NCBI RefSeq assembly: GCF_002201515.1
Contig: NZ_CP021421.1
Span: 930,001-994,000 of the forward strand
Source of the DNA: Muribaculum intestinale
GTDB lineage: Bacteria > Bacteroidota > Bacteroidia > Bacteroidales > Muribaculaceae
DNA: 64,000 nucleotides
Direction of reading: 5' to 3'
The notes under the pieces are model-generated. The model was not told the origin of the DNA and did no database searches. It saw nothing but the letters and a program-made list of their open reading frames with translations. A program made the position numbers and the translations under genes. Shown in pieces: positions 22,823-40,600 of this stretch. How positions within the stretch are numbered: position 1 is the stretch's first letter; each line of letters starts with the position of its first letter.

Positions 22823-22836
22823 ATCTATTAATTTTA

Positions 22837-24108
22837 TTACTGGCCGAATTCTTCGGCGATAATATTCAGATAGGTATCACCCCAGCCATTGCCATACTCG
22901 GGGTCGGCAGGTTCTACGGCATTGGCAAAGTTCCATTCATTGTATGCGTCGACAATCACCATAGGCTGCGAGCCGAGCTGCATCTTGGCCGACCAGCAAC
23001 GTTCGCGAAAGTCCTGAGGATCGGGCTGAATGATAGGATAGTCCCAGCGTCCGTCCTGCACGTAGAATGAGAATCCGGGGCTGACCGAAGGTATGTAGTT
23101 TATACCGCAGTTGGCATAATACTCGCGGTTGACCTTCATGTGCTCGTTTATAAGAATGTTGTGTAGATCGAACCGGTCCCATCCGATACCGTTTTCAAGA
23201 TTGGTCAGTTTCTCGGGAACCACGGCGTCGGCATGTCCTTCAATCCAGAAATGCTGCCAGCGTGCAGGGGGAGTCCATTGTGTCTGGCGCGCGATGATAT
23301 ACACATCCTTGCCGACTTCATTCTTGATTATGGAGCGCATGTCGTCGTACAGAGCCCGCGGATCACGGCTGTAAAGCTGACGCAACCCGTCGATAACCAG
23401 CACGGGACGACCGTGGAAATGGAAATATGTGGACTCGGTCATGAACCACGACAATCGGCGCACAAAGTTGAGGAACACTTCACGGGCAGGCACCTGTACG
23501 GTCTGGCCGTTGTCGAGGCGGTACTCACGGGGAGAGCAATCCTCAAGAAGGGTATTGTTGTCCTTGCAACCGAGACCGTCGGCAACGTTCTGCGCGTTGA
23601 AGCGGATGGCAAAGCCCATCGAGCCGTCGTTCTTCCACTGAAGTGTGTCGGTATGGCCCGAAAGCATATTTATGAACACAGTATCCTGAGCGCTGATATT
23701 ATTGGGGAACATCTTGTTGCGGTCCTCCGATATGTGGGGAGTGATGATATAGTCGATTTTGGCTTTCTTCACATTCTCCACGATGACGCCGAGATTTTGC
23801 GCATACTCTTCATGATAGTCGCGGTTGGTGCCGAACAGTTCGTACTGACCGGCCGCAACCTTTACGTACGGTCCGTATTTACCGGTTTCGGCATCATATT
23901 CCTCCTCAAGGCGACGCATAATCTGGGCATTGCTCCACCAGCTCGAGGGGTTGTACATCAGGATGCCGGTAGGCACCTTTCCTACATTGACGGGAGTCAG
24001 CTTATAGTTCCAGGGGTGCTCGGAGATATCGGGATTGTCATCCTCGACACACGCTGTGGCAAACAGTCCGAGTGCAATAGCCAGGCTCCATAATATATTC
24101 TTTTTCAT
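22837..24108 (-). CDS. Lipoprotein with a GH99/WbsX-like domain
   Basis: 423 residues. A lipoprotein signal peptide ends at Cys20 (FATACVEDD), and the acidic residues after the Cys fit Bacteroidetes surface-export signals. The rest resembles the GH99-like barrel: VPTGILMYNPSSWWS near the start, FHFHGRPVLVIDGLRQL in the middle and VDAYNEWNFANAVEP near the end, comparable to the NEWNEW segment of WbsX-type proteins. GH99 enzymes cleave alpha-mannosides internally, but many GH99-like proteins have unknown substrates. It lies between susD and the large beta-helix gene and is cotranscribed with them. The family call is by pattern only. Confidence 0.7.
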   Translation of the reverse strand: MKKNILWSLAIALGLFATACVEDDNPDISEHPWNYKLTPVNVGKVPTGILMYNPSSWWSNAQIMRRLEEEYDAETGKYGPYVKVAAGQYELFGTNRDYHEEYAQNLGVIVENVKKAKIDYIITPHISEDRNKMFPNNISAQDTVFINMLSGHTDTLQWKNDGSMGFAIRFNAQNVADGLGCKDNNTLLEDCSPREYRLDNGQTVQVPAREVFLNFVRRLSWFMTESTYFHFHGRPVLVIDGLRQLYSRDPRALYDDMRSIIKNEVGKDVYIIARQTQWTPPARWQHFWIEGHADAVVPEKLTNLENGIGWDRFDLHNILINEHMKVNREYYANCGINYIPSVSPGFSFYVQDGRWDYPIIQPDPQDFRERCWSAKMQLGSQPMVIVDAYNEWNFANAVEPADPEYGNGWGDTYLNIIAEEFGQ

Positions 24109-24161
24109 GTCGGTTTCAATATATGTTTAATAGTGTTGGTGTATGCAGGGGATGTGGAAAA

Positions 24162-26273
24162 TCAGTTGCCTGAAGTGAGGTTGTAGCCGTAGGCCTTGGT
24201 ACTCTGGTACTCGAAAGCGACAGCTCCGAGGGCTGCGGCCTCCAGACGTGCACCGCTGATTTCCTTGGCGCGTGCGAGGAGTTTCTCATACGTATCGCCG
24301 TAGTAGTGCTCGTAATATTCCATCTTTGGAGTAATCTCACGCGGAGTACCCCAGAGACTTGCATCCTCGACATGTGGATTCTTTTTTGCAAAGCCAAGAG
24401 AGGTGAAGATATTGTCGCCCCAGCGTTCGGTACGTACAAACGGAGACACTGACTGAAGCATCGCGATACCCTCGGCATTTGCTGCACCGTTCTTTGTTGT
24501 CTCGGCCTCCGGATATATGAGGCGTTCCATCCAGTAGTTGTAGTCGGGACTTGCGCCAAGCACTCCCGATGACTGATCTTTTGTAAATGTAGGAGGCCAG
24601 TCAAATGTGCGGGTACGGCGCTCGATGTTCCATATCTCAAGACCATTGAAATAGTCGGCGAAGGAGCGCTGTTTGTAAATCTGCTCAAGCAGCCCGTCGT
24701 TGCCATTGTCGCCACCCATGATTTTGGCCTGATATATGAGACGGCGGTCGTGGTATCCTTCTTTCGAGGTACCCCATTTCACACCGTCCTGAGCCTTGAA
24801 GTCAGCATAGTCGGTAATGCCCCACTGTGCCATCGAGGCATCGATACCCTCCTCATAGGCAGTCTTGGCACGGCCCGGATTGTTGTTGTAAATGAGTTCG
24901 GCCTCGGCGCGGAGGAAGCATGCGTCGGCATAGGTGAGGATTACCCAATGGGCATCCTCGCTTACGAAGTAAGGCTGTGCCACAGAATGATTGTAATCGT
25001 CCTGTCGGGCAGAGCCGAGCACATCGTGGTAGGTATATGTCATACCCGGCACCGTGGCATATCGCCATGAGTTGGGAATATCGCACTGCTCCTGATAGGG
25101 CGCATAGTCGACAGTATAGCGTACAATAATCGAGTCGCGAAGAGTGTTCTTAACGGCAGTAGGGAGCGAACGGTGCTGAGTGTAATTGGCACACTTTGTG
25201 GCCACTACCACACTCTGGCCGTTGATTGTCATCTTTGTGTCGGAATTCTTGCAGTAAGCTGAATGCGCACGTGTAAGAGTGTCTGTGACAAGGAACGGCT
25301 TGGCCTTTGGATTGCGCTCGTTCATCTTGCGCACATACTTCCCGATACGCGGGTCGTTGAATGTAGCAAAGTATATGTAGCCGTACTCGTTGAGACATGG
25401 CCATATCGGGGCCTCCCCACCCTGCTCGGCCTTATGGTCTTTCTGGAACGAACGGTAGTAGTAGCTCGACGACTTATCCGAGTCGAGCCCCCACTGCATC
25501 ACCGCATTATCATCGTTCGACGCCATAAGACGTCCGTCAGCAAGCACCTCGAGAGCATGCTCACGCGACAGGTCGGAATTGAGGTTCTGACAGTGCATGG
25601 CCACATTAAGACGAAGGGTGTTGGCAAATCTGAGCCATTTGTCCATATCGGGAGCACCGATACCGCCGGCACCGAATATCGGGTCGTTCTGAAGGGCGTC
25701 AAGAGCCGATGCGTTCTGGGTATGGTCGAGCAGATCGACGGCCTCCCTTAGGTCATTGAGAATCTGTGTATATACCTGCTCTTCCGAATCGTACTTGTAA
25801 TAACGCTTGCCCTCATTACCGACAACGATAGCGTCACTCATGGGAATGGGGCCCCAGCATGATGCCATCACATAGTATACATATGACTTCCATGCCTTGA
25901 CGATGGCCATGTTTTTGGGATATATAGTGCGCCCCTCATTGTCGACATTAGCGGCATATTCACGTTCAAGTTTGATAAGGTCGCGGAGCACGTTGACATA
26001 GTAGTTGCGAAAATATCCGTCGCCGGTGTCCTGGCTCGGATTGCAGCAGAACATCACAATCGTAAGGCGGGAGAAGTTGAGGAAACGACGATAGTTCATC
26101 TCGGCCCAGTTGTTGGCGGTACGCTGCACGGTACCGGCGAACACATCGTTGAGTTCAACGTCATATACCTTGTGAGGATTGGTGTTTATCTCCTCGAAAT
26201 CATCGGTACAGCCTGAAAAACCGAGTCCGGCAGCGGCTATCGCGACAGAGGGAATGATATATTTAAGTTTCAT
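24162..26273 (-). CDS. SusD/RagB-family surface glycan-binding lipoprotein
   Basis: 703 residues. The lipoprotein signal ends at Cys22 (GFSGCTDDFEEINTNPHK); the DDFEEINTNP start is typical of the SusD-like_2/RagB branch. The alpha-helical TPR-like scaffold is visible as several amphipathic helices, and the usual C-terminal motif of a YWMERLIYPE type is present. SusD-like proteins sit as a lid on a SusC-type porin and capture oligosaccharides. It follows susC by 15 bp. It is intact although its SusC partner carries a stop codon. Confidence 0.93.
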   Translation of the reverse strand: MKLKYIIPSVAIAAAGLGFSGCTDDFEEINTNPHKVYDVELNDVFAGTVQRTANNWAEMNYRRFLNFSRLTIVMFCCNPSQDTGDGYFRNYYVNVLRDLIKLEREYAANVDNEGRTIYPKNMAIVKAWKSYVYYVMASCWGPIPMSDAIVVGNEGKRYYKYDSEEQVYTQILNDLREAVDLLDHTQNASALDALQNDPIFGAGGIGAPDMDKWLRFANTLRLNVAMHCQNLNSDLSREHALEVLADGRLMASNDDNAVMQWGLDSDKSSSYYYRSFQKDHKAEQGGEAPIWPCLNEYGYIYFATFNDPRIGKYVRKMNERNPKAKPFLVTDTLTRAHSAYCKNSDTKMTINGQSVVVATKCANYTQHRSLPTAVKNTLRDSIIVRYTVDYAPYQEQCDIPNSWRYATVPGMTYTYHDVLGSARQDDYNHSVAQPYFVSEDAHWVILTYADACFLRAEAELIYNNNPGRAKTAYEEGIDASMAQWGITDYADFKAQDGVKWGTSKEGYHDRRLIYQAKIMGGDNGNDGLLEQIYKQRSFADYFNGLEIWNIERRTRTFDWPPTFTKDQSSGVLGASPDYNYWMERLIYPEAETTKNGAANAEGIAMLQSVSPFVRTERWGDNIFTSLGFAKKNPHVEDASLWGTPREITPKMEYYEHYYGDTYEKLLARAKEISGARLEAAALGAVAFEYQSTKAYGYNLTSGN

Positions 26274-26288
26274 ACGGTAATTGGTCTT

Positions 26289-29200
26289 TTAGAATGTGAC
26301 TTTGATGTCGAATCCCCATGTGGCCTGCGGCAGAGTGAAGCCTTCCTCGAAGCCCTGGGCATTGCCGGTGGAGGATGTAGCCTGCGGATCCATACCCTTG
26401 GGGCAGTTCTGGTAGAGAATCGCCACGTTGCGGCCTACAACTGAAACCTTGGCCGAACGGATAAATGACTTGCGCAGCCATTCCTGAGGCACACTATAGC
26501 CTACGCTGATTTCGCGCAACTTCACATAAGAAGCCGAATATATATAGCGTGCGGCCGACGAAGTGCCGTTGTGACACCAGTGGTCGGTAGGAGTAACCCA
26601 TGTCATCGACTGCTTGCCACCCCAATATTCAAGCCCCTCGGAGTATACGGTGTTGCCTACCCATACACCCTTGGGACGCGCCCAGTCGGCATAAATCACA
26701 GGATTGGTATTCGGATCGGAGCCGGGTACATTGGTATACTGCGATTCGAGCACACCCTGACGTTCGCGGTCGTTCTCGCCATAGACGAGGCGCGAAATCT
26801 GATTTTCGAGACGGCCCTCAAGGGTATTCACTGTGTTTCCGTCGATACCTCCGCGGAATGTGGTGTAGCTCCAGAAGTTGCCACCGTGGCTGAAGTCAAT
26901 GGCAGCGCCCACGGAGAGATTCTTCCAGCGTAGAGTTGTTCCGGCACCACCAATCCAGTCGGGCTGAATCGAACCGAGATACCGGTCCGGCTCATACTCG
27001 GCCTTGCCGTCGCGGCCTACATATATATTCCCGTTTTCGTCGCGTTTATAGTCGTTGCCGTAGAACACGCCATAGGGCTTGCCCACTTCGGCATATGATT
27101 TGATATTGTCACGTCCGCGGATTTCGAAACGGTCAATGCCGGGAGCGAGCGCCACCACCATATTGTTGTTCTTCGCCCAGTTGGCACGTATCTCCCAAGT
27201 CCAGTCGCGTGTGCGTATCGGAGTTACAGAGAAACTGAGCTCTACACCCTTGTTGGTCATCTTGCCAGCGTTGATAATCTCGCGCTGATAGCCTGAGGCC
27301 AAAGGAGCGTCGGCCTCTACAATCTGGTCGGTGGTAGCCTTGTTGTAATATGTGAAGTCAAACGAGAAGCGGTTGTCGAAGAATCTGAGTTCGGCACCGA
27401 GCTCCCACGATTTGGTCATCTCCGGGCGCAGACCAAGTGTCTTCAGCACTGATTCACCGGTAAAATAAGGTATACCGAGGAATGAACCGTCCTCAGCCTT
27501 GTAATATCCCGAGATAAGACGATCGTAGCCCGTATCGTTGCCCACCTTGGCGTAAGAGCCGCGAACTTTTACGAGCGGGAAGATATGCTGGTCGAGCTTG
27601 AGCAAGTCGGAAATCACCAGACCGGTACCTACCGACCAGTAGAAGTATGAATTATTATTTTGGGGAAGAGCAGATGACCATTCGTTGCGTGCGGTAGCAT
27701 CGATGTATGCCCACCCGTCGATACCGAGAGAAAGGGCTCCGTACACGGCCTGTTTCTTTTTCCCTTCGCTCTCTTCAAGAGCGCTCACGAGGCCTTTGGC
27801 ATTGGAAAGCGAGCGCATGTCCTTGAACTGGAGCTGAGAAGCCTTGGAATACATTCGTGAGCCATGTATCGACTGGGCCGACGCACCGATGCTGGCGTTG
27901 ACATTGAGAAGATTGTCCCAGAATCCGTTGTGGAACATCACAAGGGCTTCGTAGTTGGTATTGCGCCAGTCGCGTTTCCAGCGCATGTACTCGCCGTCGG
28001 TATCGAAGGGTGTATTGAGATTGGTGAATGACCAGCCCTCGCTCACCTGCAGGTCGGTAGCGGCGCGCAGACGCACGTCGACCATCTTATAGGGCTTGAA
28101 GTTGAATGTGACGTTGCCCATGAACCAATGCTTGTTGTCGGAGTTGTCACACTCGTTGAGCGACCAAAACGGATTTGTAAAGCCTTTGAAATTATAGGCT
28201 GTGCCGTCGGGCTTCTTCCAGGGGACAAGTTCATCGATAGAGGCATCGCGCGACAGATTGGCGAAAAGATACACCGGATTACGGTCGGAGGAGTTGCGGA
28301 ACGCACGGTTCTCGACCTCTTCGTAGACATAGCGGGTGGACACGTCGACATTCCACCATTTGGCTATGTCGGCAGTGGTATGGAGGTTGAAGGTATGGCG
28401 TTCGAGATCGTTCACACCCTTCAGCACGTCATCGGAGATGATGTTGGTGTAGCTCAGACGGAATGTGCCTCCGTCGAACACTTTGTCGACCGAAAGTGAG
28501 TTGGTGTACATATGGCTCGTACCATACATGGCCTTGGTGGTCTCGGGATGCGACGAATACTGACGCACCTGGCCGTTACGTCCAACAACGTCGAAGCCGA
28601 GCATCGGCATGCCCCACGAGCGCTGGTCCTGACCGGCGTTGTTGGGATTCCATATGCCGTATGGAAGGCTTGGGTCATATCCTCCGGCAGTACCCTGGCT
28701 TCCATAGAAATTACGTCCCTGATTGGCACGCTCGAAGGCACATGACTGTCCTGCGCCATACCAGTTCTGATAGGCAGGATAGTTGTAGAGGTAGCCGAGC
28801 ATAAGGTTGAATCCGTAAGTCACACCGAGGCCTTTTTTCTTGGTGGCCTTCTTGGTGGTGATAAGAATCACACCGTTGGCTGCATCGGAACCATAGAGAG
28901 CCGAGGCGTTGGCTCCCTTCAACACCTCGAGGTCCTCGATTTCATCAGGGTTGATAAGGTTGGCCGGGTTGCCGAAGTCAAGGTCGCCGTCCTCGCCCAT
29001 GTTGTTGATGATGGGCACTCCGTCGACTACGATAAGCGGCTGGTTGTTGCCGGTGAGAGAGTTGACACCGCGCAGCACTATACGTGTCGAGGCGGTAGGA
29101 CCACCGCCGGATATTACCTGCATACCGGCGGCTTTTCCGGTAAGCATATCCATGAGGTTGGAGCCACGCACCTCTGTAAGAGGCTCTGTATCTATTGACT

Positions 29201-29591
29201 GCCGCGCGTAGGAGAGCGACTTGGCGTCGCGTGTGATACCGAGCGCTGTCACAACCACCTCGTTGAGCTGGTTCTGGTCATTTACGAGCACTACGTTGAG
29301 AGCACCCGCATTTTTTACTGTTATATTCTGACGCCGATAGCCTACGTAGCTGATCTGGAGCTTTTCGCCCTTGTCGGCCTTTATGGAGAATTTGCCGTCG
29401 ACATTGGTGGAGGTGACTCGGTTTGTACCTGCGACATGCACGGTAGCGCCGATGATAGGCTATCCATCCTGGTCAACAACCGTACCGCTGAGCGACAGAC
29501 TCTGTGCCCATGCCTGTTGTCCAGCCAGTGATGTTGCCAGCAGAGCGGCCGATGCCGAGAGCCGTGACAGATGTTTGAATGATATTCGCAT
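26289..29591 (-). pseudogene. SusC/RagA-family TonB-dependent receptor with an in-frame amber stop at codon 44
   Basis: From the ATG at 29589-29591 the frame gives a signal peptide (MRISFKHLSRLSASAALLAT, ending near AWAQS) and the start of the CarboxypepD_reg domain (LSGTVVDQDG). It then meets TAG at 29460-29462. The same frame continues directly with PIIGATVHVAGTN and runs without a break for 1057 more codons. These include the plug with the LNEVVVTALG and GRVV-type SusC features (VVDGVPIINN) and the C-terminal beta-strand ending IKVTF. A single base change would restore a sense codon. The first downstream ATG (29441) would lack the signal peptide and half the first domain. So the gene is broken, or depends on readthrough, or reflects a sequence error. 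Confidence 0.9.
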
Positions 29592-29993: not shown

Positions 29994-32054
29994 TTATCGG
30001 GCAACCTTGGCTACCGCGAATCCGGCTCCGTCGCGTGCCACTATCACGTAGGCACCTGCGGAAAGACCATTGAGGTCAAGAGCACCCTTGGCCTGCGCTA
30101 CTTTCACGCCCTTTAGGGTATATGCGGAGAATACGGTGGTGTCAGTCGCTGTAACTATGCCGTCGGCGATATTCATCTGCAGCTTGCCGTTGACAGCGGT
30201 AATCTCATCGATGCCGGTAGTGGGAGGTGTATAGTAATCGGTAATCTCGCCGCCACCGTCAACGATGTCGTAGAGATGGTCGACATCGATTTCATTGGCG
30301 CCTACGATAGCCTTGTCGCCGCGGGTCTTGCCGTTCATGTCGGTGGCAGAGATGTCGAAGCCGCGGATAGTCCAGTTTGAACCATTGTTGGTGACAATCT
30401 TCTCAGACTCCTTGTCGGCCTTTACATAATACTGCTTGTCGCCAAGACTGCCGGCCTCGCTTTCGGGATTTATAGGAGACACGCCCCATACCATTCCATT
30501 GTATGTAAACGCAGCGGAAAGTTCGGCAGCGCCTTCATCGAAACATGGAGCATCGTTGCCATAGTTTATATGAGATGTCTCTGACTTCACAGAGCCGTTT
30601 TCGTCATTGGGAATGGCGGCAATTACACTGTGCTCTATTTTCATGTCGGCAATGCTCTTGGCATTCTCATTGAGGAATGACACGTCGCTGTAATCGCCGT
30701 TGCCACACTGGTTGCCCTCCATGATGGTATTGAAAATCTCGACAGAGATTGCGTTGGCGGGATGGGCGGCATTGCCGTCGAAGCAGATATTGGCGCCATG
30801 GCCACCGTTGGTCTCGCCGCGGTTTCCGTTGGAGCCGCCGGCAATCATCGAGCAGTTGGTAAGATTGAGGAGCGACCCTTCATTGCCGCCGTTCCAATAA
30901 AGCTGCGGGCCATAAAATCCTGCGGTGTTACCGGCAAACAGACAGTTGCCAAACTTCATGAGCAGATGTTTTGTGCCGTCGGGATTGCCGTCGACATTGT
31001 TTACAGCCACAGCACCGCCATGTTCCCATATGGCGTCATTGAAACCGAAGTAGCAGTTTGTGATGTTGGCGTCGACAATACGGTCGTTGCCGTCAACATT
31101 GCTGAATGCATATATGGCGCCACCCTTGCTCCATGCAGAGTTTCCGACAAACGAGCAGCGGTTGATATCCACTTTAGTCGAGGTGTGGAGAGTCCAAAGC
31201 ACGAGAGCGCCGCCCTCTACACGCTTGCATGGTTTGTCGAAACAGTTGGCTCCGTTATTGTCAAACAGACAGTCCTCAAGCACAAGGTTACCGCCGGTCT
31301 GGCAGATAGCACCTCCGCGACGGGCACTGTTGTTCATAAACACAGAATTGCGTATTGTAAGCTGGCCGAACTGGAAATGGATGGCGCCTCCGCGTTCGAC
31401 AGTCTTGCCATCTTCGGGATTGTAACACTCCATCGAGCCTTCGGTAGCGGGAGTAAGGGTAGTTGAGTCGAAACCATTGTCAGCGAAAACACAGTTGTCG
31501 AAGTCGGCCACGATATGGTCGTGGATATAGAATGTTCCGCCCTCGGTAGGAGCGACACCGTTCTGGAAACGTAGATTCTCAAAACGCACCCATGAGTTTT
31601 CTACAGTATTCTCAGGATTAACCCACTTGCTGAAGTTTGTCTCACGTCCGAGTTCGAAAAAGCGCCATGCCTTGTCACCGTCGAAACCGTCGGTCTCCGG
31701 ATCCATGCCGCGGAAAGTGATGTTGGCCCAGCGGGCGTCGTCAATTTTGAGCTGGAATCCGTTCTGGTTTCCTTCCTTATAGAAATGACCGCAGTTGCCT
31801 TTAGACAGACGGTTGCCTGTCAGAGCGAGATCATATTCGGCGGCCATACTGAGAATACCGGAGATATTTACAATGTCGCCGGTCTCGATAATCGATGCCA
31901 GATTGGTAAGAGTCTTACGGGGAGCATCGGCGGTAAGACCGCTGTTGCCGTCATCTCCATTGGGCGAAAGATAGAGATCCTTTGCCTGAAGATTTCCCAT
32001 TGCCAGAGCCGCCATTGTGGCGAGCACTGATGCACGTGTAAAATTCTTTTTCAT
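29994..32054 (-). CDS. Secreted right-handed beta-helix (polymorphic-repeat) protein with type IX-like tail
   Basis: 686 residues. Signal peptide about 1-24 (LAMGNLQA). DLYLSPNGDDGNSG is the typical start of secreted beta-helix proteins. Several turns repeat the form GGAI...NSxFxxN: RGGAIHFQFGQLTIRNSVFMN, RGGAICQTGGNLVLEDCLFDN, KGGAIYAFSNV. This is like chlamydial Pmp or adhesin-type helices. A linker and a C-terminal sorting-like domain follow (LKGVKVAQAKG, then LNGLSAGAYVIVA). It is probably exported to the cell surface as an adhesin or glycan-binding protein; no catalytic residues are assignable. It is a single gene whose promoter shares its layout with that of the gene at 32457. Confidence 0.75.
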   Translation of the reverse strand: MKKNFTRASVLATMAALAMGNLQAKDLYLSPNGDDGNSGLTADAPRKTLTNLASIIETGDIVNISGILSMAAEYDLALTGNRLSKGNCGHFYKEGNQNGFQLKIDDARWANITFRGMDPETDGFDGDKAWRFFELGRETNFSKWVNPENTVENSWVRFENLRFQNGVAPTEGGTFYIHDHIVADFDNCVFADNGFDSTTLTPATEGSMECYNPEDGKTVERGGAIHFQFGQLTIRNSVFMNNSARRGGAICQTGGNLVLEDCLFDNNGANCFDKPCKRVEGGALVLWTLHTSTKVDINRCSFVGNSAWSKGGAIYAFSNVDGNDRIVDANITNCYFGFNDAIWEHGGAVAVNNVDGNPDGTKHLLMKFGNCLFAGNTAGFYGPQLYWNGGNEGSLLNLTNCSMIAGGSNGNRGETNGGHGANICFDGNAAHPANAISVEIFNTIMEGNQCGNGDYSDVSFLNENAKSIADMKIEHSVIAAIPNDENGSVKSETSHINYGNDAPCFDEGAAELSAAFTYNGMVWGVSPINPESEAGSLGDKQYYVKADKESEKIVTNNGSNWTIRGFDISATDMNGKTRGDKAIVGANEIDVDHLYDIVDGGGEITDYYTPPTTGIDEITAVNGKLQMNIADGIVTATDTTVFSAYTLKGVKVAQAKGALDLNGLSAGAYVIVARDGAGFAVAKVAR

Positions 32055-32198: not shown

Positions 32199-32256
32199 CA
32201 AACTTAACGCACGAGCCTTAACTGCGCGCTTAATTCCCACTTAACGCGCAATTAAT
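32199..32256 (-). promoter_or_regulatory. Promoter with a four-site TTAA array (site A)
   Basis: Minus-strand -7 element TAAGTTTG at 32199-32206. Upstream, TTAA cores start at 32218, 32230, 32241 and 32252, that is 12, 24, 35 and 46 bp beyond the end of the -7 element. On the plus strand the sites read CTTAAC, CTTAAT, CTTAAC and AATTAAT. No TTTG -33 box is present; the array occupies its place, as in activator-dependent promoters. The leader to the start at 32054 is about 138 nt. The rest of the gap to 32456 holds only the hairpin at 32397-32427. Confidence 0.6.
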
Positions 32257-32396
32257 TTTGCCCGACATGCTTTTAAACATATTTTTAACACTTCGATAAC
32301 CGCCCACGCAACACATTGACATACAGCTACATGAAGCTCACACAGCCGGTACGCATATATATTGTCGCCATATAGGAGTATCACGTCCACACAAGA

Positions 32397-32427
32397 CAGC
32401 CGGGATGTACTGTCACAACCCCGGCTG
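32397..32427 (-). terminator. Hairpin after the gene at 32457
   Basis: An 8-bp GC-rich stem (32397-32404 with 32420-32427), 29 bp after the stop codon. On the minus strand it is followed by TCTTGTG, a weak U-tract. Confidence 0.5.
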
Positions 32428-32456
32428 CCGTATTATAATGCAATGGTCATGTTAAG

Positions 32457-33752
32457 TCAAAGTATGATTTTACTTACCTTCCGTCCACTTACCCCCACAT
32501 AAATTCCATGTGGCAGTACTGCCTCACTCAATACTCCGCAATACACACGTATACCGTTCAGATTATATACAGTCACCTCGCTCTCGGCGTCGATGAACGT
32601 ATCTTCAATACCAACGGTATCGTCGCCATCATCATAATCCCGGACTATATCGCCGGTAAAGTAGAAGTCGGTAAACTTTACATTGATTTTACCAAGTGTG
32701 GTGACATCATTGTAGATGTACATGCGGCATGTAACAATATCTGACCAATCCACCTTGTCGAGATTGTTCATTGAAGAGGTGGCAACGGAATATACATGCT
32801 TGCCGAATTTCCAGTCAAGTTTCTTTATGTTATAATATCCGGCGGCCTCCTGCCCCCAGTCTTTTATCTCTTCGCTTGGCTTGCTCGCCAGTATCACACC
32901 CTGACCGCCTTTTCCTTTTATGTTCTCAAGAAGTGCAGGATCTTCTACTCCATCTACAGGTGTAATCTCGACTTCGAAATTAAACGCAGTGTTTGTATAT
33001 CCTGACAAATCTACGTGGTCGATTTCTAAAGTGATATATGCCGAAGTCTTAGGGTCTCCGCCAAGCACAAACTGACACTCTTTCGTAGAACTGTTAGGTT
33101 GCTTATATTTATATCGAGTAGCAATCGACTCGTTGACAATAACTCTGCCATGATCGACAATCTTCATATTCTTCATCTTGAATATGTATCCGGCTGATTT
33201 CATGCGCGCGAACTGCAGGCTTACACCGGTAAACTGAGTGTCGGCATTGAGTTTGTCAAGATTCGGACTCTTGGACATCGGTATAACCATATGATTCCAT
33301 TGTCCGTCGACCACTCCCCCAAATATATCGGCATATACCGTATTCATTCCCGGCCCCATGGAGACAAATGTCCAGTCGGCGCCCGAAGACTTCAGATTGA
33401 GGTTGATGTAGTTCTGATTTTCCATTTTGCCATTACCGTCATCAAGCGGGCAACCCCATTCGATTCCGGAGAAAGCCATGCCATCCTTGGCCAACGGACT
33501 CTCCACGTATAAATCAAACTCAATCACAGCATCTTCCACGCAACATTTTTCAAGACTGAAAGACATGTCGCGGTTGAAAGCTCCGTAAGCCCACCACGAG
33601 CGACCGTTGCCATCCTGTGACCCGTTGGAAATGGTATTCTCCTGGGAATTCTCGGCTATTACGTAATAATCGGGTAATTCAGCGGTCTGTGCAGCAGCAA
33701 TACCGGAGCCAAGCATAGACGCGAGAATCAATTGTGTAATTGTACATTTCAT
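32457..33752 (-). CDS. Secreted protein of unknown function with type IX-like tail
   Basis: 431 residues from the ATG giving MKCTITQLILASMLGSG, which starts a clear signal peptide ending near AAAQ. An in-frame ATG 60 bp upstream would lie in the promoter and is rejected. The body is beta-rich: an N-terminal part with WWAYGAFNRDMSFSLEKC and VIEFDLYVESPLAKDGMAFSG resembles a jelly-roll carbohydrate-binding fold. A second similar part follows near residue 210. The last 65 residues look like a sorting domain (TVYNLNGIRVYCG, LPHGIYVGV). I do not recognise a named family. Its promoter matches that of the gene at 29994, so the two are probably expressed together. Confidence 0.65.
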   Translation of the reverse strand: MKCTITQLILASMLGSGIAAAQTAELPDYYVIAENSQENTISNGSQDGNGRSWWAYGAFNRDMSFSLEKCCVEDAVIEFDLYVESPLAKDGMAFSGIEWGCPLDDGNGKMENQNYINLNLKSSGADWTFVSMGPGMNTVYADIFGGVVDGQWNHMVIPMSKSPNLDKLNADTQFTGVSLQFARMKSAGYIFKMKNMKIVDHGRVIVNESIATRYKYKQPNSSTKECQFVLGGDPKTSAYITLEIDHVDLSGYTNTAFNFEVEITPVDGVEDPALLENIKGKGGQGVILASKPSEEIKDWGQEAAGYYNIKKLDWKFGKHVYSVATSSMNNLDKVDWSDIVTCRMYIYNDVTTLGKINVKFTDFYFTGDIVRDYDDGDDTVGIEDTFIDAESEVTVYNLNGIRVYCGVLSEAVLPHGIYVGVSGRKVSKIIL

Positions 33753-33793
33753 GATGTTTAAGATTAAATGTGCACTGTTAAATTTTTCAATCA

Positions 33794-34201
33794 CAAATTT
33801 ATCCCGCGCCAATTAATACACGCTTAATACATTACTTAGAGCTTGTTTAATAATAAATGTTACCGTTAGGGCGGTCAGTCGGCGAGCAGATTTTCGCTTG
33901 TGATGAGGGAGTTATGGGGCTCCATAACGACCGAAGAACGGGCGGAAAGATGTCGGCGAATGACCGAAGGAAGGTAATTTGTTTCATATCGTTGATATAT
34001 TTTGCATTTATCTTACAAGCATGCAAGAGATCGTATCGGTTATGAAGTTACCTTTTGTCTCGTATATCTTGGCCGTTTTTCGTCCTGTTCCTCAGTCATG
34101 TACATAAAGTACAATCCTTCGTCACATGTCGAAAATCGACTCAAGCTATACGACCCTAACGGCAACATTTATTATTAAACAAGCTCTTAATCTCCGGTTA
34201 A
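33794..34201 (-). promoter_or_regulatory. Promoter with a TTAA array split by a MITE (site B)
   Basis: Minus-strand -7 element TAAATTTG at 33794-33801, about 42 bp before the start codon at 33752. TTAA cores begin at 33813 and 33824, then the TTA at 33836-33838 is interrupted by the MITE (33839-34186) and resumes as TTAAT at 34187; the next core is at 34198. With the MITE removed, the cores lie 12, 23, 35 and 46 bp beyond the -7 element, almost exactly as at 32199-32256. Confidence 0.6.
33839..34186. mobile_element. 348-bp MITE-like element with 36-bp terminal inverted repeats
   Basis: The ends GAGCTTGTTTAATAATAAA... at 33839-33874 and 34151-34186 are inverted repeats of 36 bp with three or four differences, flanked by a TTA direct repeat (33836-33838 and 34187-34189). 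Weaker mirror similarity continues inward for another 60 bp or so. It has no transposase; the longest open frame is about 60 codons and not convincing. A 3-bp TNA-type duplication fits elements mobilised by an IS5-related transposase, which is inference. Confidence 0.75.
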
Positions 34202-34278
34202 TGTGTCAAAACACGTTTAATAACACATTCCTGACCTCTCTGTCAGTACCTGTATATCTGCCTGCCTCAATCTCGAAA

Positions 34279-34346
34279 AATAACAAAGGGCCAGTCATCA
34301 CGACTCGCCCTTTGTTATTAACCTTAAATCTAATACCATGAAAAAC
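34279..34346 (-). ncRNA. Candidate small RNA with its own promoter and terminator
   Basis: On the minus strand TATATTTG (34353-34360) is a good -7 element, and the RNA would start near 34346. It contains a 13-codon frame beginning MVLDLRL at about 34340-34302. It ends in a perfect 13-bp hairpin (34279-34291 with 34307-34319) followed by TTTTTCG. The hairpin has no other gene to serve, because both neighbouring genes point away from it. Whether the product is a short RNA or a leader peptide is open. Confidence 0.5.
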
Positions 34347-34452
34347 ACAGTGCAAATATAGTAATTATACTTACAGAACACGGGGCATGGTGAATAGTTC
34401 ATCCTATAATCCGATTTAATATTCTTTAACATTTGCAACAATTTTAATTCAT

Positions 34453-34460
34453 TACCTTTG
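34453..34460 (+). promoter_or_regulatory. -7 element of the two-component operon promoter
   Basis: TACCTTTG 27 bp before the ATG at 34488, with TTTGCAA at 34432-34438 as a possible -33 box 17 bp upstream, slightly short of the usual spacing. Confidence 0.6.
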
Positions 34461-34487
34461 TAAAACAAATCGAAACCAGACACTCTC

Positions 34488-35198
34488 ATGAGAATAAAGA
34501 TTCTTATCGTCGACGATGAAGAACCCATCTGCGAAATCCTGAAATACAACCTTGAGCTTGAAGGTTACGAAGCCGACTATGCATTGTCGGCCGAAGAAGC
34601 CATGAATCTCGACCTGTCAAGCTACGCCCTGTTTATCCTTGACATAATGATGGATCAGGTATCGGGCTTCGACTTCGCCAAGCAGTTGCGCAACAATATC
34701 AAGACCGAAAATACCCCCATTATCTTCTGTTCGGCCCTCGACGGAGAGGACGATACCGTGATGGGGCTCAATATCGGTGGCGACGACTATATCACAAAGC
34801 CTTTTGTAATCAGCGAGGTGCTTGCCCGTGTGCGTGCCGTGTTGCGCCGCTCGCAGGCCTCACAGCAATATGCCTACAACGTATCCCAGGCCCTTACCGA
34901 GCCTGATATCGTGTTCAAGACCCTGCGCATCGACCGCAACGAAAAGGCATGTTACCTCGACGGACAGCCGGTGGCACTTACCAAGACCGAATTCGAGATA
35001 CTGCTGTTTTTCCTCACCCACCGCAACAGAATTTACTCCCGCGAGGAGATTATACGCGAGGTGTGGCCCGACGATGTGGTAGTAAGCAACCGCACTATCG
35101 ACACCAATATAACCCGCCTGCGCAAAAAGATTGACCCCTACGGCAACTATATCATAACCCGCCTGGGATTCGGCTACGGATTCAAAGAGACAATCTGA
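34488..35198 (+). CDS. rprY: OmpR/PhoB-type response regulator, RprY-like
   Basis: 236 residues. The receiver domain (about 3-120) has the acidic pair Asp9-Asp10, the phosphoacceptor Asp52 in FILDIMMD, and Lys in DDYITKPF. A winged-helix DNA-binding domain (about 140-235) carries LTKTEFEILLFFLTH, the recognition region RTIDTNITRLRKK and a GFGYGFK wing. It resembles RprY of Bacteroides, the partner of the RprX kinase; the name is by similarity and context only. Such regulators bind direct repeats about 11 bp apart, so it is one candidate for the TTAA arrays at 32199, 33794 and 37451. The histidine kinase gene follows after 25 bp. Confidence 0.88.
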   Translation: MRIKILIVDDEEPICEILKYNLELEGYEADYALSAEEAMNLDLSSYALFILDIMMDQVSGFDFAKQLRNNIKTENTPIIFCSALDGEDDTVMGLNIGGDDYITKPFVISEVLARVRAVLRRSQASQQYAYNVSQALTEPDIVFKTLRIDRNEKACYLDGQPVALTKTEFEILLFFLTHRNRIYSREEIIREVWPDDVVVSNRTIDTNITRLRKKIDPYGNYIITRLGFGYGFKETI

Positions 35199-35223
35199 CC
35201 TCCAAACACCGATCTGCATATAC

Positions 35224-36717
35224 ATGTCACTGATTAGAAAACACAAGCTCAACTATGGCTGGCGGCTGTTTCTGCCGCTGGTCGGCTTGCTTTGGCTTGT
35301 AATCATCGCAGTGGCCATATATCAGTATAAAAACGAGTCGAAGCTGCGCGAGGAGATTGTCAACGACGAGATACGTCTGCTCAACTCGCGCATAATCGCT
35401 GCCTACGAGCAGGAACTCGACCTTATGCCGGTAATCCAGTTTGCAGCAAAGTACTACGAAAACTCAGCGCTCAACGGCATACGCATATCGGTCTACGACA
35501 ACCACGGCAATCTGCTGTACTGCACCGGCACCCCGATACCGTCGTCGGTCAACGGCAAGACGCCGCCCGAGCTTATCGCGGCCAACGAGACCGGCCACGG
35601 CACCTCGCTGCGACGAAGCGACGTAGACCCGACACAGGCCTACTACTACTTCGGAGTGCGCACATCGGCCGACGGCAAAATCTATGTACATACAGCTATG
35701 CCTTACACAAGCGCCCTGTCGCGCGAACTGTCGGTCGACAAAGGCATGTGGCTGCTGATACTCGCCATGGCCATAGGCACTACAATCTTCGCCTACTTCA
35801 CCACCCGCATCCTCGGCCGCAACGTAATCATACTCCACGACTTCGCGACGAAAGCCGCCGCAGGGGAGCCGCTGCCGCGTATCGACAACTTCCCCCACAA
35901 CGAGCTCGGCGACATATCGAGGCAGATATACAAACTGTATACCGAGAAGGACGCGGCAATCAACCGGTCGGAACGCGAACACTCCATAGCCATCAAGGCC
36001 ACCGAGGACAAGATACACATGACCCGCGAGCTCTCCAACAACATCAACCATGAGCTCAAGACCCCCGTCGGTGTAATACGCGGCTATCTCGACACCATAG
36101 CGACCCACCAGGAAATGGTACCGGAGATGAAGCAGAAATTCATCGAAAACGCCCGCAACGCCATGGACCGGCTGTGCAACCTGCTCAACGACCTCTCGTC
36201 GATAACACGTCTGGAAGAGGGCGCCAACTCGATATCCAACGAAGACGTCGACCTCAACGACCTGCTGTTCAATATCAGTACCGAGCTGGAGTCAATCAAC
36301 ATGACCAACAACATCCACTTCTCCTACGACATACCCGACGGCTGCATCGTTATCGGCAACTACAATCTCCTGTACGGGATGATGATGAATCTCATACGCA
36401 ACGCCGACTTCCACTCACGCGGCGAGAACTGCGGCATCAGGCTCCTCAGCCAGAACTCCAGAGAATATACGTTTGCATTCGCCGACGACGGAGTAGGCGT
36501 GGGCGAGCAGCACCTGAGCCATCTCTTCGACCGATTCTACCGCATCGACAAAGGGCGTTCACGAAAGGTAGGAGGCACCGGCCTCGGCCTCCCTATCGTA
36601 AAAAACACGGTAACGGTATTCGGAGGCACAATCTTCGCCCGCAACCGCCAGCCTCATGGTCTGGAATTCGTATTCACCCTTATGAAAGCCCGGCAGGAGG
36701 CTTCATCGGAGGCCTGA
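35224..36717 (+). CDS. rprX: Sensor histidine kinase, RprX-like
   Basis: 497 residues. Two membrane helices (about 13-31 and 174-193) enclose a periplasmic sensor of about 140 residues. Then come a HAMP-like linker (RNVIILHDFATKAAAGE), the dimerisation domain with the phosphoryl-accepting His276 in INHELKTPVG, and the ATPase domain with an N-box-like MMNLIRNADFHS, the G1 box FADDGVGVG, and the G2 box GGTGLGLPIVKN. It phosphorylates the response regulator encoded just upstream. The signal is unknown. After it the intergenic region 36718-37900 begins, with a separate promoter at once. Confidence 0.9.
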   Translation: MSLIRKHKLNYGWRLFLPLVGLLWLVIIAVAIYQYKNESKLREEIVNDEIRLLNSRIIAAYEQELDLMPVIQFAAKYYENSALNGIRISVYDNHGNLLYCTGTPIPSSVNGKTPPELIAANETGHGTSLRRSDVDPTQAYYYFGVRTSADGKIYVHTAMPYTSALSRELSVDKGMWLLILAMAIGTTIFAYFTTRILGRNVIILHDFATKAAAGEPLPRIDNFPHNELGDISRQIYKLYTEKDAAINRSEREHSIAIKATEDKIHMTRELSNNINHELKTPVGVIRGYLDTIATHQEMVPEMKQKFIENARNAMDRLCNLLNDLSSITRLEEGANSISNEDVDLNDLLFNISTELESINMTNNIHFSYDIPDGCIVIGNYNLLYGMMMNLIRNADFHSRGENCGIRLLSQNSREYTFAFADDGVGVGEQHLSHLFDRFYRIDKGRSRKVGGTGLGLPIVKNTVTVFGGTIFARNRQPHGLEFVFTLMKARQEASSEA

Positions 36718-36829
36718 ACAGTGGCCTTAACCGGGGAAAATACGATAAAAAGACCTCATATTGCAATTTTATCAACATTGACACATCGGCGTAACCGGTT
36801 TGTCATATCGTCATATTACCTTTGCACTA

Positions 36830-37088
36830 CCTCAGACGACAAGGAGTTGTCGTTACCTCTGAGAAAAGAAATTATGCCAAAATAAGCATAGCTTGCAAAG
36901 AATTAGTAATTATTAGTTATGGAGCAGGCCTTGTAAGACGCCTTTCTTGAAAGCGAGGCACCCGAATCCGGGCATAGGTTAGGGAAACATAGAGGACCAG
37001 TCGAGATGACCCCCACCTCCCGCTGCTATACAAATAATAGATACATTAGAGCAAGATTGAGCCACCTCACCACAAGGTGGCTTTCTTG
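36830..37088 (+). ncRNA. Probable structured RNA, possibly 6S RNA
   Basis: A strong -7 element TACCTTTG (36817-36824) precedes about 260 nt without a gene, ending in a GCCACCT/AGGTGGC hairpin (37061-37081) with TTTCTTGT. A 5' hairpin near 36834-36850 is clear (ACGACAA with TTGTCGT). A long closing stem can be drawn between about 36920-36945 and 37020-37045, giving a rod with internal loops and the small hairpin CCCG-AATC-CGGG. A rod closed by distant ends fits 6S RNA. It lacks the conserved blocks of RNase P RNA and does not end like tmRNA. The 6S assignment is a guess from shape and position. Confidence 0.5.
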
Positions 37089-37111
37089 TATATATACGCA
37101 TATATAATCCT

Positions 37112-37154
37112 CTGTGTCGGGCCAAGTTTACGGAGTAAACTTGGCCCGACACAG
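37112..37154. terminator. 19-bp perfect hairpin in the intergenic region
   Basis: Arms 37112-37130 and 37136-37154 pair perfectly over 19 bp with a 5-nt loop and no U-tract on either side. It would end a leftward transcript from the promoter at 37451-37496, and lies just after the terminator of the structured RNA. Confidence 0.55.
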
Positions 37155-37450
37155 AAACCGGCGCCATATCAAGGCCAATGCCGATACGACGCCGATTACT
37201 TCTCATACCTTAGAAAATTAACCAAAAACCAATCTTCTAACCCTATCCGACACACATGCTTCTCACGAATGGAGCATCGGGATGATTATTGGAATGTCTG
37301 TCATACCTTTTTCAACACCGGAAGACTCTTAGAAAGCCTCCGGACCGGAATCTCCTGTCGTCGCGACATCAGGCTCCGCACAAGTGTATAAATAAGCAGT
37401 TATAATTGATGTGAGTGATTGATAAATACTTATTTTTCTTTTCTCTGCCA

Positions 37451-37496
37451 CAAAGTTAAATGCGCCCGCTTAACACTCCGGTTACATAGCGCTAAC
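37451..37496 (-). promoter_or_regulatory. Third promoter with the TTAA-array layout (site C), pointing left
   Basis: Minus-strand -7 element TAACTTTG at 37451-37458. Upstream sites GCTTAAC (core 37470), GGTTAC (core 37482) and GCTAAC (core 37492-37495) lie 12, 24 and 34-35 bp beyond it; no fourth site is seen at 46. The transcript would run left towards the 19-bp hairpin at 37112-37154, about 330 nt, with only very short frames such as a 22-codon basic one beginning MSRRQEIPVRRL. Confidence 0.45.
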
Positions 37497-37728
37497 TTCA
37501 CAATAAAAAACGCCAATTACACTTGAAGCACACCTGATGCCACCCTTAAATATCTGTATTTAAGAACATTAGCAATATTATGTTTTAAAACATAATTCCG
37601 AGCTTTAATTACAAATTAATTTCATATGTAATCGAAAGAATCGCAAGTAACGTCACGGAGATTCGTATATCCGTAGTCCGTGCGCTAAATTTTAGCGGTT
37701 AATATTTCTCGGAATGAAGTCAAATTAC

Positions 37729-37736: not shown

Positions 37737-37900
37737 TATCATTAACATTTTGTTTCGAAAAATACCATAAGAAACATGGCACCGCCTGTCTATTCACGAT
37801 GCTGTGCGTCATCGGTGACATCGACATTAACCATGAACCACCGGTCTCTGAATCCACTTCACGTCCCCGCATATGTGCAATAAATAAACCGTTATGATTG

Positions 37901-40600
37901 ATGTGGCATAAACTGACAACATTGCTAAGTTTTATAATAATGCTCATTGTGGGCACCGCCGTAAACGCTATGAACTACGGCCTGAAGTTCAACTCCAACG
38001 ACTCACCCGTCGCTGAGCGCACATCATTGTCTCTTAACGACGGCAAACCACTGCCTGTGTACCAGCGCTTCACCCTGTCGTTTGAGATTGAGACACGCCC
38101 TGAGATGTCGATGTTCGGATGTGTGGTAGGCCTTACCGGCAACGACGGCACCGACATATCAGTCGTATATTCACCCGAAGGGAGCCTATTCTACCCCACC
38201 CTTGTGGTCAACGACAGGATATTTCCATGTGTCAACCCTGTAAGCACATCGCCTGTAGAGACCAGTCTGCTCATCGACAAGAAAAACGGCCTGCTGCGCC
38301 TTATCTATTCCACCGACACCGTAGCTGCAAAGCTCGACATGAAAACGCTCAGCGAGGTAAGCATCACATTCGGTGCCCGCGTGGAGTACGAGACACCACC
38401 CATCAATGTGGCCAACATACAGATACATGACGGCGACCGTCTTCGCTACCATTGGGAACTGTCGCACCACGACGACAAAATCTGCTACGACCAGATAAGC
38501 CGGATACCGGCAAGAGCCGACAATCCCCACTGGATGCTCGACGACCACAAGATAACACGCCGCGTGTACTCGCTCAAGACCGCCGACAGGATACAGACAG
38601 CTTTCGACCCGCTTACAGCCTCGCTCTTCATCGTCAGCGACAGTGTGGTCAACATCGTGAATCTGCCCGACAGCACCTCGCGCACAATAACCGTAAAGGG
38701 CGGATACCGCGAGATGACCATGTCAAACAATCTTGTCTATCGCCCGTCGACCGGCGAACTGGTGTCGTTCGACCTCAACCGCGGCACAATAGCCACCTTC
38801 GACTTCCCGACAGCCACATGGTCGAATCCCGAGTCGCACTCCGAGCTTGAGGCCGTCCATGCCAACCATTCATGGGCCCTTCAGGGCGATTCAGTCTACT
38901 ACTCATTTGGCGGCTACGGCTTCTTCAGGTTTTCCAACGACATGTACCGTCTTGACCTCAACAGCAATACGATGGAGCAGATACAACTGCGTCCGCGTCC
39001 CGCTCCACGCAACGGTGCGGCATCGGCTGTCGTAGGCGACAGGCTCTACATATTCGGGGGCAAAGGCAACGAGACAGGGCGCCAGGAACTCCCCACCCGC
39101 TATTACTACGACCTCTACGAGTACGACCTGGCCACCATGCAGGGACGCAAGGTATGGGAGATGGATACCGTGAGCAATATCTTCCTCAACGCATCGACAA
39201 TGTACTACGACGAGGAGACCAGGAGTTTCCTTGTAGCCACCACACAGTTCGGGCGCAGTGTGGCGCGCATATATCTCGACCGTCCGGCCTACAGCACGGT
39301 AGTGAAACCTCTGCATCTCGACATGGGCTACCGCGACTGTGTCTACGACTTCTTCTATGCTCCTGAGTCGCGTACATATTATCTGCTTGTCGACCGTCTG
39401 CTCACCGACAAGACCCACGACCTGAACGTATACGCCGTGGAGGGGCCGCTCGCTCTCGACAACAACACCGGGCAGCACTTCGACACTCTGGCAGGCTCAC
39501 GCACATGGATATGGTGGATAATCGGCGGACTGGCTCTCCTTGGAGCCGCGGGTGGAGCCGCCCTGGCACTGCGCCGTCGCCGCAACCGTCTGACAGAGAC
39601 TTGTAGAGAAGACAATATATTGCATGGCAGTGCCATGCAATATAGCCGGGATGTACATCCCGGGACTGGAAGCCCCGAACCAATCGACTCCGAGACTCCC
39701 GGGCCCGACGCGGCAACCGACACACAGCAACCGAACCCGACCGACAACAGCGCCTGCCCTGCTGATGCAACGACCGAACCGGAGGAGACCGATACCCCAG
39801 ATACCGACATTTACGAGGAGGAGGCCCTGTCGGAGCTGACAACAAAGGCCAACATTCCCGCCTACTACGACCGTTCGAGGATGGCCATATCGCTGCTCGG
39901 CAACTTCAATGTCACCGACCGCAATGGCAAAAACATAACCACTGCATTCTCCTCGCGCACAAAGAAACTGCTCCTGCTTCTGCTGCTTGTCAACAAGAAG
40001 AACAAAAACGGAGTGCCGATGCACCTTATCGACGAGACCATCTGGGGTGACAAAGACGAGGTGTCGGCACGCAACAACCGCAACGTGTACATGCGCCGCC
40101 TGCGTCTGCTCCTTGAAAAGGTAGGCGACATCACCATCACATTCGACAACGGCTACTTCAAGCTCGATGCCGGCAATGTGTTTATCGACTATTACGAGGT
40201 AATCGGGCGCATGCAGCAACTCGACGAGCCGGGTGCTGATGAAGAGACCATAGAGCGCACGCTTGAGCTGCTGCTGTACGGTCCGCTCCTCCCCAACACT
40301 GTGTATGAATGGCTCGACCAGTACAAGGGCGACTACTCCCACCGGTGTCTGGTATGCCTCACCAAGCTGCTTGCCGACAAAGCCGGGAACGACGAGGAGT
40401 CGGATACAGCCTACCGCATAGCGCAGACCATCATGAGACACGACACTCTGTCGGAGGAAGCCCTGCGCGTGCAGTGCCGCATACTCCACCGCCGGCATAT
40501 GACGGGTCTGGCCAAGGCTCTTTACAACAATTTCTGCAAGGAGTACCATCAGGTGATGGGCGACGACTTCGCCACTGCATTCCAGAGCCTCATCGACTGA
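37901..40600 (+). CDS. Membrane-spanning one-component regulator: LamG/Kelch-like sensor, TM helix, SARP-type DNA-binding and BTAD domains
   Basis: 899 residues from the ATG giving MWHKLTTLLSFIIMLIV; a TTG one codon earlier is less likely. Signal peptide 1-24. A LamG-like beta domain (about 25-190) and a Kelch-like propeller follow (about 215-500, with SYYSFGGYGFFRFSNDMY-like blades and GDRLYIFGGKGNE near 372). One membrane helix (about 536-557: IWWIIGGLALLGAAGGA) is followed by RRRR, which fixes the C-terminus inside the cell. After a P/T/E-rich linker, residues about 660-750 form a SARP-type winged helix (LLGNFNVTDRNGK, HLIDETIWGDK, NVYMRRLRLLLEK) and 760-899 a BTAD-like helical domain. I infer a ToxR-like regulator that senses a surface or periplasmic ligand. 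Confidence 0.82.
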   Translation: MWHKLTTLLSFIIMLIVGTAVNAMNYGLKFNSNDSPVAERTSLSLNDGKPLPVYQRFTLSFEIETRPEMSMFGCVVGLTGNDGTDISVVYSPEGSLFYPTLVVNDRIFPCVNPVSTSPVETSLLIDKKNGLLRLIYSTDTVAAKLDMKTLSEVSITFGARVEYETPPINVANIQIHDGDRLRYHWELSHHDDKICYDQISRIPARADNPHWMLDDHKITRRVYSLKTADRIQTAFDPLTASLFIVSDSVVNIVNLPDSTSRTITVKGGYREMTMSNNLVYRPSTGELVSFDLNRGTIATFDFPTATWSNPESHSELEAVHANHSWALQGDSVYYSFGGYGFFRFSNDMYRLDLNSNTMEQIQLRPRPAPRNGAASAVVGDRLYIFGGKGNETGRQELPTRYYYDLYEYDLATMQGRKVWEMDTVSNIFLNASTMYYDEETRSFLVATTQFGRSVARIYLDRPAYSTVVKPLHLDMGYRDCVYDFFYAPESRTYYLLVDRLLTDKTHDLNVYAVEGPLALDNNTGQHFDTLAGSRTWIWWIIGGLALLGAAGGAALALRRRRNRLTETCREDNILHGSAMQYSRDVHPGTGSPEPIDSETPGPDAATDTQQPNPTDNSACPADATTEPEETDTPDTDIYEEEALSELTTKANIPAYYDRSRMAISLLGNFNVTDRNGKNITTAFSSRTKKLLLLLLLVNKKNKNGVPMHLIDETIWGDKDEVSARNNRNVYMRRLRLLLEKVGDITITFDNGYFKLDAGNVFIDYYEVIGRMQQLDEPGADEETIERTLELLLYGPLLPNTVYEWLDQYKGDYSHRCLVCLTKLLADKAGNDEESDTAYRIAQTIMRHDTLSEEALRVQCRILHRRHMTGLAKALYNNFCKEYHQVMGDDFATAFQSLID
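39616..39663. repeat. Two adjacent perfect palindromes inside the linker coding region
   Basis: 39616-39644 is a 13-bp perfect inverted repeat with a 3-nt loop; 39646-39663 is an 18-bp perfect palindrome (CCGGGATGT/ACATCCCGG). They lie back to back and in frame within the cytoplasmic linker of the membrane regulator, encoding about 17 residues. This looks like a small palindromic element tolerated in an unstructured region. Confidence 0.6.

Follow-up and report, generated by a model that had tools for sequence, protein, structure and literature searches.

We analysed a stretch of 64,000 nucleotides from Muribaculum intestinale (contig NZ_CP021421.1, positions 930,001 to 994,000; hereafter the window), in which three promoters, P1, P2 and P3, carry arrays of TTAA repeats upstream of a TAnnTTTG -7 element. 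These arrays are very probably (we put the probability at about 0.83) the operators of a membrane-bound regulator encoded at 37901..40600 on the plus strand (899 aa from its ATG), here called kelch-SARP, which joins a kelch propeller, a transmembrane (TM) helix and a predicted DNA-binding domain of the SARP type. The two are linked by the geometry of the repeats, the predicted fold of the protein, the position of the arrays in the genomes and the genes downstream of them, and comparison of sequences supports reading the repeats as activator arrays.

Layout and conservation of the arrays

The initial annotation of the window had described three promoters of one layout, and all three were found where it had placed them, on the minus strand. 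Each offset is the distance between the first T of TAnnTTTG and that of the TTAA in question, and arrays were scored by the number of unit bases matched out of 16. P1 (32199-32255) has its -7 element, TAAGTTTG, at 32199..32206, with the same sequence in the congeners G106 and G144, and its operator at 32218..32255, where four TTAA units (32218-32221, 32230-32233, 32241-32244 and 32252-32255) at offsets 15, 27, 38 and 49 give a score of 16/16. P2 (33794-34201) has its -7 element, TAAATTTG, at 33794..33801 and an operator at 33813..34201 whose proximal units (33813-33816 and 33824-33827) are split from the distal pair (34187-34190 and 34198-34201) by a miniature inverted-repeat transposable element (MITE; 33839-34186, 348 bp, with 34-nt inverted ends and a TTA target duplication). 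Its offsets are 15, 26, 38 and 49; it scores 16/16 with the MITE left out (by eye). With the MITE kept, the score drops only to 15/16, since the end of the element itself brings a TTAA into register. P3 (37451-37500) has its -7 element, TAACTTTG, at 37451..37458 and a degenerate operator (37470..37500; units at offsets 15, 26, 37 and 48) reading TTAA, GTAA and TTAG on the minus strand, so that only 12/16 unit bases match.

It had also been proposed that the array takes the place of the usual -33 box, and TTTG is indeed absent 17-23 bp upstream of the -7 element in P1, P2 and P3. The same was true of 35 arrays elsewhere (TTTG in 0/35, compared with 49/389 other intergenic TAnnTTTG sites), an absence that is partly automatic because a TTAA fills that position.

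Of the 36 TAnnTTTG sites in the window, exactly three, those of P1, P2 and P3, had at least 12/16 unit matches; 300 block-wise dinucleotide shuffles of the window gave a mean of 0.007 such sites (maximum 1) and the reversed window none. When the -7 element was not required, P1 and P2 were the only four-unit arrays in the window scoring at least 15/16, and 15 shuffles produced none. Conservation was measured as the fraction of unit or spacer positions identical in all three species, namely the window genome (G000), G106 and G144. Units and spacers were conserved at 16/16 and 14/33 positions in P1, 15/16 and 16/32 in P3, and 16/16 and 13/33 in a distant promoter at 1398778 (see below); for four promoters pooled (these three and that at 814479) the values were 56/64 and 57/130 (Fisher p 1.7e-9). 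P2 falls outside this comparison, as its gene is cut off by the contig end in G106 and is absent from G144.

The genome of the window is a single 3.3-Mb contig. A whole-genome scan, as proposed in the initial annotation, here for TTAA N7-8 TTAA N11 TAnnTTTG, returned four matches compared with none for the reversed pattern, the array thus being more frequent than its control; gaps of N10-12 gave six matches compared with 0 reversed, both of the added matches having a gap of 12. The four N11 matches are P1, P2 and the sites 814479 and 1398778 (G000:C1). The gene behind the 814479 array encodes a secreted protein that matched nothing in Pfam at 1e-5; the array at 1398778, which has five units (by eye), lies before the gene of another secreted protein, and the orthologue of that protein in G106 scans as GH43-CBM6-CBM35 (glycoside hydrolase, GH; carbohydrate-binding module, CBM). 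The suggestion of a local regulon therefore holds as far as a regulon involving the membrane SARP is concerned, and not as to its being only local, since two arrays lie ~148 kb and ~437 kb away.

The candidate regulator

The kelch-SARP protein has a kelch beta-propeller, presumed periplasmic, at 38543..39457 (plus strand, as are all its parts), a TM helix followed by RRRR at 39503..39580, and a SARP domain at 39866..40597. A hydrophobic stretch at the position of the TM helix was present in 40/40 proteins examined, the window protein included. The AlphaFold2 model of the SARP domain (pLDDT 94.9) consists of an OmpR-type winged helix followed by a helical BTA domain, which is the fold expected of a SARP, and in a Foldseek search with this model AfsR and EmbR were the only folds below E 0.001. 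The whole would thus combine a sensor and a DNA-binding domain in a single membrane-bound chain, with the output, BTA domain included, at the C-terminus.

Before the propeller comes a beta domain at the N-terminus (roughly residues 41-206 of the model). It had no Pfam match in the window protein and in a relative a single weak one, to Laminin_G (E 0.021), and kelch proteins filled the matches listed in the full-length fold search, none being for this domain. Pfam scans of five whole kelch-SARP chains revealed no histidine kinase or receiver family; therefore kelch-SARP was not classed as a hybrid two-component system (HTCS). Among 17 homologues from one protein search a source name was attached to two only, either hypothetical or kelch-repeat protein; the annotation therefore hides the regulatory role proposed here.

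Linkage of arrays and SARP genes

We scanned the best 80 of 124 SARP loci found in Bacteroidota, with one genome per species and near-duplicate loci counted (1.47 Mb). The combined scan of period and offset peaked at a period of 11-12 and an offset of 15 with 29 cases, over a background of 0-1 at most settings, the exceptions being neighbouring cells and offsets one unit further up. Likewise, among 3072 cells of 4-mer core and offset computed for the 1166 TAnnTTTG sites of these loci, TTAA at 15 ranked at the top with 29, followed by the shifted ATTA at 16 with 14. The 80 loci presented 35 arrays in 26 loci and none in reverse. Of these, 12 were at the divergent promoter of the SARP gene and 10 more lay farther upstream; 13 were downstream of the gene and 0 inside it. 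The units are TTAAnnn, 11-12 bp apart, the last 8 bp from TAnnTTTG, an arrangement that matches the target promoters of SARPs. G119 and G155 have closely similar SARPs and similar arrays despite different divergent genes (a GH31 gene and one for a DUF4988 protein), so the array appears to go with the SARP.

Arrays occurred in 5/5 of the sampled genomes of the genus that have the SARP (4, 5, 2, 4 and 3 matches) compared with 2/9 of those without it; among the latter, seven had none, G013 one and G179 two identical copies. The perfect three-unit array was found 84 times in 392 Bacteroidales genomes (12 reversed), in 13/28 genomes with a SARP domain vs 49/364 without (p 6.6e-5); at most seven candidates per genome were scored for the domain, and a few SARPs may be missed in these counts. 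Within the SARP genomes 10/26 arrays lay within 10 kb of a SARP-domain match, where 0.2 were expected. A further set of 27 genomes, those of 29 out of 30 chosen SARP loci (L105 left out), was picked for the presence of a SARP and overlaps the 80-locus count; it had 35 perfect arrays in 20 genomes (0 reversed), of which 13 were in SARP flanks (expected 0.18). A looser two-unit pattern, scanned in a family sample of 198 genomes, gave mostly background outside SARP genomes, often in AT-rich contexts and with a reversed control of similar order.

Three arrays lie just past the 3' end of the SARP gene and are directed at it: L094 12835 (-), L097 12796 (-) and G458:C5:12859 (+). Those of L094 and L097 have no gene of their own within 450 bp, which suggests a short convergent transcript or attenuation. 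Separately, near-identical or identical perfect arrays were seen away from SARP flanks at G591:C57:242350, G587:C4:543350 and G602:C32:206514, pointing either to a further conserved member of the regulon or to a different regulator.

Genes downstream of the arrays

Downstream genes were counted for 28 of the 35 arrays of the SARP loci; the seven excluded were two duplicates, two convergent arrays without a gene, one without a gene within 450 bp, one from the window lineage and one on a fragment. Genes that look glycan-related followed 22/28 arrays. These encode enzymes of families GH92 (4), GH43 (3), GH31 (3) and GH3 (1), DUF5703 proteins with a marginal GH95 match (3), SusC-like TonB receptors (6) and, once each, a CBM6 protein and one resembling esterases; the other six genes are two DUF4988, two without family, a CotH and a laminin-G gene. 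By this adjacency kelch-SARPs are candidate regulators of polysaccharide utilization loci (PULs).

The two window targets are secreted proteins with tails that resemble, by eye, the C-terminal signal of the type IX secretion system. The P1 target (29994..32054, minus strand, 686 aa) has a weak, below cut-off match to the Chlamydia PMP repeat, and its relatives among the 14 genus genomes are full-length only in G000, G106 and G144, with matches to the C-terminal tail in G132 and G076. The P2 target (32457..33752, minus strand, 431 aa) matched families of neither Pfam nor NCBIfam at E 0.001. The window also contains a PUL-like cluster (19043-29441) with SusC, a SusD-like protein and a 1259-aa pectate-lyase-like protein, which has its own promoter without an array: upstream of the SusC gene (26289-29441) there is a TAAATTTG of its own and no array.

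Alternative readings and points against the proposal

The initial annotation had left open whether the 11-bp period belongs to an OmpR/PhoB-type regulator or to a SARP. The geometry fits the OmpR/SARP type, and the comparative evidence favours a SARP. The arrays could in principle be Pho boxes, bound by the PhoB-type response regulator encoded at 34488..35198 (plus strand), next to a PhoR-like sensor kinase gene (35224..36717, plus strand, below the NCBIfam cut-off), or by another member of the OmpR family. The former gene had been called RprY-like, an identity that we reject, as its product scores 129 bits on the NCBIfam RprY model (cut-off 370) and 324 bits on that of Bacteroidetes PhoB (cut-off 270). 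The gene sits between the arrays of the window, OmpR-type proteins also bind 11-bp repeats, and in genomes without the SARP some arrays precede PhoB-like genes (L198, L199) and genes of small carboxypeptidase-regulatory-like secreted proteins (by eye). Nevertheless, an orthologue of this PhoB (74-100% identical) is present in 13/14 genus genomes while the arrays follow the SARP, with matches in 7/14, so that array presence does not track PhoB in this sample. Moreover, arrays cluster round SARP genes across the phylum, a G follows TTAA in 34% of the units at SARP loci vs 10% in arrays of SARP-less genomes, and no array precedes phoB in the window. The comparison of genomes thus disfavours PhoB as the regulator, and we regard the Pho-box explanation as unlikely. 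Among the 84 arrays of the 392 Bacteroidales, 30 had locus context, 24 of these from SARP-less genomes. Several SARP-less arrays have a nearly strict 11-bp period (L198, L199, L179, L189-L192 and L196, with the match at 1501, or at 21 in L192) and may be candidate Pho boxes of these bacteria.

Even less probable is that a different, unlinked activator common to glycan loci binds the arrays and that the SARP only shares those loci. Such an activator would account for the 22/35 perfect arrays outside SARP flanks in the 27 SARP genomes and for the 49 SARP-less genomes with arrays; it would not account for the 12 arrays at the SARP's own divergent promoter, the excess within 10 kb of SARP-domain matches, or a geometry that is that of SARPs. 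A third alternative is that the TTAA repeats arose by chance in intergenic DNA rich in A and T, or that they are common to Bacteroidota promoters in general. In its favour, when the -7 element was loosened to TAnnTT the genome held more reversed matches (10) than forward ones (5). However, four of those five matches were full TAnnTTTG arrays, the loosening adding just one, and the reversed excess likely comes from the different frequencies of AATT and TTAA, which makes reversal an imperfect control. Neither the narrow peak in offset and period nor the near-zero counts in shuffles depend on reversal, and the units outlast the spacers between species. A chance origin, contradicted by the shuffle, period-offset and core-offset controls, was rejected, and we give this explanation hardly any weight.

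Several observations count against kelch-SARP as the regulator of the arrays. The layout is not exclusive: the arrays of the SARP-less genomes, some of them before PhoB-like genes, have the same geometry, and the regulator is therefore named by linkage and not by geometry alone. Conversely, an array that reaches the threshold used is missing from 54/80 SARP loci (21 of the first 40 listed and 33 of the last 40, leaving arrays in 19 and 7, respectively), and two of the eight genus loci (L084 and L086) lack one even at 12/16. For two targets tested, full-length matches were confined to three of the five genus genomes that have a SARP, so the co-occurrence within the genus may partly reflect gene content. 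Unit sequence correlated with SARP-domain similarity across 19 of the 26 loci (Mantel r 0.48; 0/2000 permutations reached this value), which speaks for the link, though the test leaves common descent in. The 814479 promoter taken alone lends the conservation claim no support (units 9/16, spacers 14/32), being poorly conserved in G144, where the copy still fits the two-unit pattern. On the protein side, AfsR ranked first when a profile of 53 relatives was compared with the PDB, with a weak E of 0.027; Pfam did not recognize the SARP domain above cut-off, Trans_reg_C matching below cut-off in 3/8 domains and the BTA domain in 0/8; and the N-terminus was hydrophobic in only 27/40 proteins.

P3 and neighbouring RNA features

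P3 adjoins the gene of the membrane SARP, as the initial annotation had remarked, and does not drive it; as a promoter of that gene it was rejected for its direction, since it points the other way, where no convincing gene follows. Frames starting near P3 stay open for at most 40 codons, and the putative transcript showed no unusual fold (z -0.05). A 26-nt repeat (88%), kept at both places in two congeners, is common to 37388-37413 and 37880-37905. The putative transcript from P3 would contain a stretch (37388..37413, minus strand) complementary to the leader and start of the SARP mRNA (37880..37905, plus strand), over 27 nt in the window (0/300 control segments as good) and over 49 nt in G106 (1/299), while the complementarity is at chance level without gaps in G144 (168/295 controls as good). 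For the convergent arrays of L094 and L097, complementarity to the SARP start was not above chance (141/297 and 143/297). That P3 makes an antisense RNA braking the SARP mRNA is a weakly supported and speculative possibility.

Two other RNA features were noted in the window: a match to the Rfam FopS small RNA family at 34278-34348 on the minus strand (62.5 bits, cut-off 56), and a highly conserved stretch at about 36870-37085 on the plus strand, with a TAnnTTTG in front and a terminator-like hairpin at its end, which had no Rfam match at E 0.1 and is perhaps an unannotated RNA.

Proposed mechanism and comparison with known systems

According to the mechanism that we propose, the periplasmic propeller, together with the beta-rich domain before it, would sense a ligand in the envelope, probably a glycan, and the signal would reach the cytoplasmic SARP domains by way of the one membrane helix and the disordered linker that follows. 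These would bind the 11-bp repeats side by side, the proximal one 8 bp from the -7 element, and would compensate the missing -33 box by recruiting sigma factor and RNA polymerase, as in the AfsR complex. As a result, secreted proteins that bind or degrade glycans would be switched on; the predicted regulon in this genome comprises P1, P2, P3 and the distant promoters 814479 and 1398778. A broader proposal, that kelch-SARPs are one-component glycan sensors throughout the phylum, with a TTAAnnn code specific to each paralogue and, in the window lineage, negative feedback by antisense RNA from P3, is possible and, taken as a whole, rather doubtful.

What is most likely new here is that SARP-type activation would operate in another phylum, coupled to a kelch sensor and anchored in the membrane. 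Among the papers listed in searches of open-licence PMC literature none dealt with a membrane kelch-SARP regulator or with such arrays, and the words SARP and kelch do not occur in the main text of a 2025 review on gut Bacteroidales (PMC12632263).

If the proposal is true, the predicted operator opens a set of loci to direct tests, with the array pointing out the members of the regulon, and the activation mechanism of the SARPs of actinobacterial antibiotic clusters extends to a phylum with a different promoter. How glycan loci pair with their sensors is an open question of central importance in gut Bacteroidota; to our knowledge the known sensor classes (HTCS, extracytoplasmic function sigma/anti-sigma pairs and SusR) do not cover all of these loci.

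The closest parallel is with the actinobacterial SARPs, such as AfsR of Streptomyces. In published SARP promoters direct repeats recur every 11 or 22 bp, with the last repeat 8 bp from the -10 element and an upstream repeat over the -35 position; likewise, the window protein has a winged helix and a BTA domain in its model, and the arrays have 11-bp repeats, the 8-bp gap and the overlap with -35. EmbR of Mycobacterium is another structural relative of the predicted SARP domain. Unlike the actinobacterial proteins, kelch-SARP is membrane-borne, has an N-terminal kelch propeller and is found in Bacteroidota beside glycan genes, and its arrays have three to five units with a TTAA core and a Bacteroidota -7 element.

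The Pho boxes of PhoB/PhoP regulators are also 11-bp direct repeats over the -35 position, and in this the arrays resemble them, whereas the distribution of the arrays follows the SARP and not PhoB. The HTCS of Bacteroides PULs have a periplasmic beta-propeller sensor, a membrane helix and a cytoplasmic DNA-binding output, and are encoded beside the PUL. Kelch-SARP shares this design, with a predicted propeller sensor, membrane helix, cytoplasmic DNA-binding output and a gene at the side of a PUL, and differs in that its propeller is of the kelch type, its output is a SARP domain instead of an AraC-type one, and the five chains scanned have neither kinase nor receiver.

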